A DNA stretch of 64,000 nt from an uncultured Clostridia bacterium (GTDB lineage Bacteria > Bacillota > Clostridia > Christensenellales > CAG-314): contig CANRFV010000005.1 in NCBI GenBank assembly GCA_947629985.1, positions 62,001 through 126,000 on the forward strand, given 5' to 3'. Under the pieces are notes generated by a model that was not told the DNA's origin, made no database searches, and saw nothing but the letters and a program-made list of their open reading frames with translations. Position numbers and translations under genes: made by a program. Shown one piece after another: positions 262 to 59,941 of this stretch (its first letter is position 1; each line of letters begins with the position of its first letter).

Positions 262-684
262 ACAGGCAAATAGTCGCCTATCGGCGAGTGAGATTTTGCA
301 GTAAAGCAAATAGTTGCCTTACTGCAAAGTGTTATTTCGCTACGCGAAGTGATAGTATTTGCTGACGCAAATAGTGCGACATTGCCCGTGGGCAAATATT
401 TTTCCGTCTACGACGGAAAAGTGAGATTTACGTGCAAGCGCGTAAGTGAGATTGTTTGCTGCGCAAACAGTTGCGGCTTTTTTTATTTGAAACATTTTTA
501 AGTAATAAAAAAATTACTGTCGAGAAGTACTTCCCGACAATAATAATTTTCAAATTATGTCAACCTTAACTTTGCCGTTAGGCAAAATAACACTTTTCCG
601 CTGAAAGCGGAAAAATAACACTCGCCGTAGGCGAATAACACTTACGCGCTTGCGCGTAAATAACACTGTTCGCCTAAGCGAACA
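262..684. repeat. Hairpin-cassette array, copy 1
   Basis: Serial 6-9 bp stem palindromes separated by GTGAGAT-type linkers (left arm) and ATAACAC linkers (right arm), around a central palindromic region; homologous to 58060-58502. Confidence 0.85.
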
Positions 685-45115: not shown

Positions 45116-45811
45116 GACAAAAACAAGTACACAAAAAAGTTCTGCCGCATACGTGCGGCGCAATACGGCGTCCAACTCCACCCGTCTCGGAACATTTACG
45201 CGCAACAAACTCCCCAACCCGTTGGCAATGCTCGTTTTTCTTAACTTAATTTGCTTGTATCTCTGCGGCAGAAAGCGGGAGATTTGACGCCGATAACTCC
45301 ACCGCTAAAAACAACCTTTTGTGTTTTATACACATAATTTGACACAATATGTTGTGTTTACATAAATTTACCCCAATTTTACCCCAAATCGGATTTTTGT
45401 TGAGTGTAATACAAATGGCTGTTGAAAGCGAACGAAATTCGCCTGCAACAGCCCTTTTATTGCAATTCCGTGTTATGATAGCGACCTGTGGCGCACACAA
45501 AGCAACTGCGCCGTTAATGCACAATCGCCAAATAGTACAAAAATTTTTAATTAAAGTTCAACCTTGAAAACTACAAAAACAAGAGTATCTCCTTGCAAAA
45601 TAAACGGAAACAAGCGAATACAAGGAGCAAGCAGTCCCAATTAAACCCAACCTTGTATTCCCGCTGAGCGAGTGTATCCACTGCAAAATAATCTGCAACA
45701 AGTATGCCGCATATAATCTTATTATTTGGACGCGAGTGCTGTTGCTATTCATAATATCAACAAACAAGTTTTTAATTAAGATACAACCTTATAAACCCTG
45801 AGAACAAGCGT

Positions 45812-45983
45812 ATCCCCTGCAAAATAATCTGCAACGAGCGCACACAGTGCGCGAAGCGAAGCCTTTTTGCAGGGGATATGCGCGTGTTTTCCGTTTTGAA
45901 TGCAATTGCACGAGCGCCACCACCATTTTTATTGCGGCATACGAAGCGAAGCCTTTTTGCAGGGGATATGCGAGCGGTATTGT
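45812..45983 (-). repeat. Terminal-inverted-repeat element (family B) 3' of uvrA
   Basis: GTATCCCCTGCAAAA...TTTTTGCAGGGGATATGC; homologous to the clpX-flanking copy. Confidence 0.78.
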
Positions 45984-57895: not shown

Positions 57896-58059
57896 TTTAC
57901 ACCTCTGTTAGTTTACGTCGGCGCAGACTAAGCAAACGCCGCTGTGTTAGTGTGTGCCATTGCGGCGCAAATTATATGGCGCATACCGCACCGCCGCCGT
58001 TAGCACAATTGTAAGTAAAGAATATTATAAAATAAATTGTCGATAATGGCAACAAAACA

Positions 58060-58502
58060 AAGTGAGATTTTTCCGCCGTTGGCGGAAAAGTGAGATTTGT
58101 TCGCATTCGCGAACAGTAATATTATTCGCTGTCGCGAATAGTGCAACATTGCCCTTGGGCAAATATTGTTCGCTGACGCGAACAGTGAGATTTTTCCGCC
58201 GTTGGCGGAAAAGTGAGATTTACGCGCAAGCGCGTAAGTGAGATTGTTTGCTTGCGCAAACAGTTGCGGCGTTTTTTATTTGAAACTATTTTAAGCAATA
58301 AAAAAATAATTGCCGAAGAATAATCTCTTTCGGCAATAATATTTTTCAAATAAAGTCAACCTTAACTTTGCCGATAGGCAAAATAACACTTTTCCGTCGC
58401 AGACGGAAAAATATAACTGTTTGCGTAGCAAACAATACCACTCGCCGCAGGCGAATAACACTGTTTACGAAGTAAACACTATCACTGTTCGCGTAAGCGA
58501 AC
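58060..58502. repeat. Hairpin-cassette array, copy 2 (lon-clpX intergenic)
   Basis: Same linkers, same centre and same module vocabulary as 262-684, with cassettes gained or lost. Confidence 0.87.
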
Positions 58503-58722
58503 ACTCGGAGCGAGTGTATCCCCCGCAAAATAATCTGCAACGAGTATGCCGCGCAAAATATTATTTTTTATAGCGCGAGTGCTGTTGCAATTCAAAACAA
58601 TCTGCAACAAGTGTGCCGCACCTTGTTAGGTGCGGCACACGAAGTGAAGCCGTTTTGAATGCAATATCTACCATTCCCTGCGGTATACGCAGTGAAGCCT
58701 TTTTGCGGGGGATATGCGAGCG
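58503..58722 (-). repeat. Terminal-inverted-repeat element (family B) 3' of clpX
   Basis: GTATCCCCCGCAAAA...TTTTTGCGGGGGATATGC; ends about 2 bp from the clpX stop. Confidence 0.78.
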
Positions 58723-58723
58723 A

Positions 58724-59941
58724 TCAACTTGCGCGGCGCGTAACCAGCGGTTCTTTGTTGCCTTCTACGCTTTGGCGAGTAATGCGCACCGACGCCACAT
58801 CGCCGCGAGACGGCGCTTCGTACATACAGTTGAGCATAAGGTTTTCCAACACGGAACGCAAGCCGCGCGCGCCGGTTTTTAACCGAATGGACTTTTCCGC
58901 AATGGCGCGCAATGCGTCTTCGTCAAATTGCAACTCTATGCCGTCCATACGGAACAGTTTTTGATACTGTTTTACAAGGGCGTTTTTCGGTTGGGTAAGT
59001 ATTTGCACAAGAGCGTTTTCGTCCAGCGGCGACAGTCCCACCGTAATGGGCAACCTGCCCACAAATTCGGGAATAAGCCCGTATTTGATAAAATCCTGCG
59101 GTTGTAAATTTTTTACCAATTGCGCGTGGTCTATTTCTTCGGTACTCTTTATTTGATTGCCGAAGCCCAATCCAGCGCCCTGTTGACGCTTTTCGGCGAT
59201 TTTTTCCAACCCGACAAATGCGCCGCCGCAAATAAACAATATGTTGGTAGTATCTATTGCGATACTTTCCGCCTGCGGGTGTTTGCGGCCGCCCTGCGGG
59301 GGTACGTTGGCGATTGTGCTTTCGATTATTTTAAGCAACGCCTGTTGCACGCCTTCGCCCGAAACGTCGCGAGTAATGGATACGTTTTCGGTTTTTTTGG
59401 CAATTTTGTCTATTTCGTCGATATAAATTATACCGCGCTCCGCCTTGTCGATATCGTAATCGGCAGCCTGAATAAGTTTGAGCAATATATTTTCCACGTC
59501 TTCGCCAACGTAGCCCGCTTCGGTAAGCGTGGTTGCGTCCGCAACGGCAAATGGAACGTCCAACACGCGCGCGAGCGTTTTGGCAAGCAAAGTTTTGCCG
59601 CAACCCGTAGGTCCCAGCATAAGAATGTTGCTCTTTTCCAATTCGACATCGTCGCTGTCGCGTTCGCCGTACAGTACGCGCTTGTAATGATTGTACACGG
59701 CAACCGCAAGAGTGCGCTTGGCTTCGTCCTGACCTATTACGTACTTGTCCAATTCCGCCTTGATCTCTTCCGGCTTGGGAAGTTTGATCGAGTCGGAGTG
59801 AGACGACTGCGCGGCTTCGCTTTTAAGCACATTTACGCACGCTTCTATGCAGTTGTCGCAAATGCACACGCCCTGCGGACCGGCAAGCATTCTTTGCACT
59901 TCGTCTTCGCTTTTTCCGCAAAAATCACATTTATTATGCAT
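58724..59941 (-). CDS. clpX: ATP-dependent Clp protease ATP-binding subunit ClpX
   Basis: [11 protein letters not shown] zinc domain; [43 protein letters not shown]. Confidence 0.97.

Follow-up and report, generated by a model that had tools for sequence, protein, structure and literature searches.

The window analyzed here (the whole 64,000-nt stretch) carries on its minus strand the genes clpX (58724-59941, named from sequence) and lon (57895-55508), and the spacer between them contains, at 58060-58503, 14 consecutive hairpins that are all perfect, measure 13-21 nt and are mostly separated by 7-nt linkers. We found that this element consists of two arms of polar units, each unit being a GTGNNAT linker plus a perfect hairpin, which are aimed inward at a core of about 105 nt. 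The left arm (58062-58262, plus strand) comprises eight units with GTGNNAT-like linkers and hairpins at 58069-58089, 58098-58115, 58123-58140, 58149-58162, 58167-58184, 58192-58212, 58220-58237 and 58245-58262. The core (58263-58366, minus strand; 20 full cores were aligned) reads GTTGCGGC...GTCAACCTTAAC, and its hairpin (arms 58300-58317 and 58329-58346) precedes a T-rich run (TTATTTTTTTATT) when read on the minus strand, an arrangement that resembles an intrinsic terminator. The right arm (58367-58503, minus strand) has six units with GTGTTAT, GTTATAT or GTGATAG linkers on the minus strand and hairpins at 58367-58382, 58390-58410, 58418-58434, 58442-58454, 58462-58478 and 58486-58503. All hairpins listed in a preliminary description were present. 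Two details needed minor correction, namely the end of the element, which is 58503, and the third hairpin of the left arm, which is TATTCGCtgtcGCGAATA (18 nt). The quasi-palindromic layout proposed there was also borne out. The left-arm linkers are GTGAGAT-like and those of the right arm ATAACAC-like, the latter being GTGTTAT when read on the other strand, so that the two arms agree in polarity and point inward. The loops are non-palindromic and share this polarity, reading TTTTCCGCTttcAGCGGAAAA in the GTG sense in left and right arm alike. The core is bordered by GTTGYGG at the left and by GTTAAGG (minus strand) at the right, through which the right arm passes into the core on the minus strand. 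Folded as RNA, the element lies 14-16 standard deviations below shuffled sequences on either strand.

Between the clpX stop codon and the right arm lies a second repeat module (58505-58723, minus strand; GAGCGAGTGTATCC...AATAATCTGCAAC... with a GTGTGCCGCACCT hairpin), whose motifs were counted 22-29 times in an 814-kb sample of the genome. This modular palindromic repeat (GAGCGAGTGTATCC / AAAATAATCTGCAAC) often adjoins the element's right arm, and it was also observed at about 45666-45821 in the window, near tmRNA; a piece resembling it is present in the lon-clpX spacer of a same-genus genome (G010, L132). On the other side, a promoter-like site on the minus strand (TTGCCA-17-TATAAT, 58024-58052) is located between the left arm and lon and agrees with 11 of 12 consensus positions, being recognized by consensus match only. 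Inspection of the syntenic lon-clpX spacers of 23 same-genus genomes (two of them cut by contig ends), a comparison that the preliminary description had suggested, revealed no such array.

Further copies, anticipated in that description, were abundant. The genome has about 33 cores of the two-armed element; contigs C2-C6 were covered in stretches, and in those that were checked every core lay between called genes. The other copy in the window (285-684, plus strand, core at about 470-570) lies between convergent genes ending at 157 (plus strand, upstream) and 1002 (minus strand, right); it retains the core hairpin with a different sequence, which scores as a 14-bp stem plus T-run on the minus strand. 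The hairpin array is far beyond chance: in the 814 kb, consecutive stems of at least 6 bp were spaced by exactly 7 nt 133 times, and by each other distance up to 21 nt only 1-21 times. Each genome uses a limited set of interchangeable hairpins with constant linkers. Among the 15 hairpin types counted in the 814 kb, 11 were confined to arrays or their borders and two had one stray copy, and the two shortest (TCGCC and TGCC) were more widespread. Whole hairpins, loop included, are swapped in the right-arm slots; in a homologous slot of 18 right arms, both sides had changed in 2 of 15 pairs and 99% of cells paired. These swaps support maintained pairing but may have arisen by exchange among copies rather than by stepwise compensation.

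Some further features were observed. The assembly of this genome (G000) is 2.37 Mb in 157 contigs, same-genus relatives are much smaller (1.2-1.7 Mb), and one contig of 330 kb (C1) has no copy of the element; it is possible that the genome is a mixed bin. A TPP riboswitch (55.1 bits; L028:1212-1305, minus strand) directly adjoins one array copy, and a CRISPR-like array with 27 repeats that contain ATTTCAATCCACGCCCC is located outside the window (G000:C2:63906-65627).

The preliminary description knew of no named family with this architecture. The unit architecture is, in fact, that of Gut-1 RNA (Rfam RF01706), which scores below threshold here and above it in sister copies and relatives. When a short stretch was examined by Rfam cmscan at the E-value level, both arms matched Gut-1: the left arm at 58114-58224 (plus strand, 30.6 bits) and the right arm at 58430-58510 or 58512 (minus strand, 31-32 bits, E = 2.8e-4); at the gathering threshold the Rfam scan gave no match at the window locus. 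The two arms, at 30.6-32.1 bits (E values of about 3e-4 to 7e-4), are thus under the curated cut-off of 50 bits; the model's pattern of three consecutive hairpins, connected by GUGAAAU-type linkers in a single strand sense, is present in each arm. Both align to model positions 1-77 in the GTG sense only, one of them with a skipped hairpin as an insert. Since the matches are restricted to the GTG sense although the hairpins are palindromic, the linkers must contribute to them. Two sister arrays in the same genome exceeded the cut-off (52.4 and 50.9 bits). The element between lon and clpX counts as a relative of Gut-1 below threshold and not as a curated member, and the three-hairpin model is a slice of a variable-length polar array.

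Analysis of 397 genomes of the order revealed Gut-1 matches in 99 at E ≤ 0.001 and in 60 over the curated cut-off, compared with none over the cut-off in 14 control genomes; as only 11 candidates were scored per genome, the copy numbers are minimum values. Among 40 genomes of the family the core proper was absent, one marginal match without an array aside, and a covariance model of the core had only one outside match among the 397 order genomes (G353), a real relative with different hairpins. On the other hand, the linker-only pattern far outnumbered its reversed control in many genomes of the order (58 vs 1, 56 vs 1 and 24 vs 0, for example), and loci fetched from several families of the order had the same design with other hairpins. 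Of the distinct linker-bounded segments across relatives, 108 of 129 were perfect palindromes, compared with 0.3% of shuffled segments, in agreement with the earlier claim that linkers are constant and hairpins vary yet stay palindromic. Exact hairpins were hardly common to different genomes, and linkers were common across the families. The arrays of relatives close with GTTAAGG, GTTGCGG, GTTGAGG, GAAATGG or similar tags; some have a mirror arm, and many have a further hairpin or T-run past the tag. In one genome (G139, L209-L230), mirror arms are about 370-550 bp apart instead of about 105 and enclose further GTGAAAT-linked hairpins, and several contigs begin or finish inside such arrays. Another genome of the same phylum and a different class (G759) had seven triple-linker matches, several with palindromic segments, and the arrays may therefore extend beyond the order.

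Exact core or unit patterns had no match in metagenome, species-genome and viral collections, and blastn found none in phage records. Triple-linker matches in the viral collection numbered 120 and were mostly coding repeats or chance; visual checking of 12 flagged matches left about seven genuine arrays, on IMG/VR contigs L285, L293, L322, L361, L364, L381 and L391, four of which had Gut-1 over the cut-off. The array contigs may be either provirus or misbinned host DNA.

The placement of arrays relative to genes was analyzed with our own gene calls, based on per-genome codon models and made mostly on draft genomes; an earlier result of no bias, obtained with a crude ORF finder, was set aside because shadow ORFs dominated it. 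In six genomes, the gene on the side from which the array is entered in its sense pointed into the array in 61 cases and away in 14. In a second set of twelve other genomes, picked by Gut-1 score, the numbers were 38 and 11 (p = 1.4e-4); the orientation test was settled on after several views of the data, so that this second set is the fairer one, and the genomes of both sets had been chosen for high scores or richness in the pattern. In the second set, 26 of these 38 arrays began no more than 40 nt past the stop codon (median 21); in many cases a hairpin or linker followed directly after it, stop positions being accurate to within one or two bases. Array neighbourhoods were tandem in 49 cases, convergent in 36 and divergent in one, and among the tandem cases of the second set sense exceeded antisense by 17 to 7 (p = 0.06). 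Because of gene orientation, distance to the stop codon and the types of neighbourhood, the arrays are probably sense 3'-end structures. The window genome had 15 tandem, 8 convergent and 3 divergent neighbourhoods, a distribution that was not clearly distinct from background. Of 15 tandem gaps, 13 had the upstream gene faced by the arm that runs into the T-run terminator; at the lon-clpX locus this gene is clpX. Many left arms in this genome face gene starts, and at least one arm is therefore often not in a sense 3' UTR. We also considered that arrays insert behind intrinsic terminators, for which there were striking cases by eye; the idea was weak in count, and a strict terminator scan of other genomes showed little enrichment beside arrays.

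With moderate confidence, we interpret the element as a two-armed, divergent relative of Gut-1 that serves as an mRNA 3'-end hairpin module with a tag and, in many cases, an intrinsic terminator. Such a module, entered from its GTG-sense side, would run from the stop codon into a hairpin array on GUGNNAU linkers, then to a tag of the GUUAAGG type and often to the terminator. In the window form, two arms would be fused around a shared terminator in the clpX 3' region: transcription of clpX would continue through the six hairpins of the right arm up to the terminator in the core, with the left arm as a mirror image that faces lon, whose likely promoter is just outside that arm. The hairpins would probably shield the transcript 3' end from 3'-5' exonucleases and assist termination, and the conserved linker may be a protein-binding site. 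Copies could spread and homogenize within each genome by recombination or gene conversion, and template switching, a published way of maintaining perfect stems during replication (PMC8794818), would keep the stems perfect. The earlier suggestion that the clpX 3' region contains a multi-hairpin RNA is supported. Against a 3'-end module speak the score of the window copy, which is under the Gut-1 cut-off, the other repeat module that separates clpX from the right arm, the left arms facing gene starts, the background-like neighbourhoods of this genome, the small terminator enrichment in other genomes and the 17-to-7 split among tandem cases. More tentatively, Gut-1 may be a single manifestation of a wide class of modular mRNA 3'-end structures that start at the stop codon, in which hairpins are genome-specific, the conserved GUGNNAU linker is read by a putative RNA-binding factor and unit number tunes how stable the transcript is; the element in the window would then represent this class in a two-armed, bidirectional form.

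The main rival, which is compatible with a 3'-end module and which we consider possible but rather unlikely, is that the arrays are selfish REP/BIME-like or MITE-like non-autonomous DNA, moved by a putative enzyme recognizing hairpin and linker, and landing or surviving mainly 3' of genes without a host function. The 33 dispersed, strictly intergenic copies in one genome, with none by core in 40 family members, the many copies in genomes scattered over the order and the arrays on IMG/VR contigs would be in line with such DNA, as would the parallel with REPs, tagged palindromes that also lie mostly 3' of genes (PMC3733652). However, neither an empty site nor a target duplication was found, and sense placement right at stop codons is tighter than neutral survival predicts. 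The Y1 transposase domain of RAYTs (PF01797) was absent from 10 of 14 array-rich genomes, and the intact copies in the window genome are, by inspection, ordinary IS200-type TnpA. Judging from this gene content, RAYT is not the mover in most carriers, which argues against the hairpin-processing mobile element of the RAYT/REP kind suggested at first. A DNA-level array, in which extruded hairpins or linkers are bound by a DNA-binding protein for supercoiling, nucleoid organization or insulation, would account for perfect palindromes, inverted arms and intergenic location; it appears very improbable, as the units are strictly polar, sense orientation tracks the upstream gene and Gut-1 matches are strand-specific. 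A DNA array bound by protein, as in the preliminary description, is conceivable but agrees less well with the 3'-sense placement. Least probable of all, and hardly to be expected, is a cassette or integron-like system whose recombinase inserts new hairpins at the linker: constant linkers, a limited interchangeable hairpin set per genome and whole-hairpin swaps would suit it, but most hairpin types never occur outside arrays, no recombinase was identified, and exchange between sister copies accounts for the swaps equally well.

Finally, the element can be set beside known systems. It shares with intrinsic terminators the core hairpin and T-run on the minus strand, whereas the preceding string of hairpins has no counterpart in a simple terminator. 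Streptococcal BOX elements, composed of boxA, boxB and boxC sequences, likewise lie between genes and are modular, with internal units that vary in number; their sequence and unit design appear to differ from those of the arrays described here. Like REP/BIME elements tagged with GTAG or CGTC, the arrays are short, clustered, high-copy extragenic palindromes with an unpaired tag, found mainly 3' of genes and with species-specific stems (PMC3733652). In contrast, the repeated tag here is a 7-nt GTGNNAT (GTGAGAT, GTGTTAT or GTGATAT) and neither tetranucleotide, different hairpins are arranged head to tail with a terminal tag, and most carrier genomes lack RAYT. With Gut-1, the element shares consecutive short hairpins and GUGAAAU-type single-stranded linkers in the same strand sense; the Rfam model, however, has exactly three hairpins, whereas the window element has arms of eight and six units inverted around a terminator core. 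Gut-1 was listed in 2010 as found in the human gut only, was assigned neither a host nor a function, and was grouped with motifs that are most likely ncRNAs not associated with mRNAs (Weinberg et al., 2010; PMC2864571); the RF01706 accession appeared in the searched open literature in this paper only. The arrays examined here, on the other hand, are mostly directly 3' of genes and in sense, and Gut-1 now has carrier genomes, amounting to a quarter of the sampled order. With Gut-1 tied to gene 3' ends and stems turning over while linkers persist, its role becomes testable by ordinary reporters and RNA-seq. The unit architecture was already known from Gut-1; what is new is the two-armed form of this known, barely studied RNA family.
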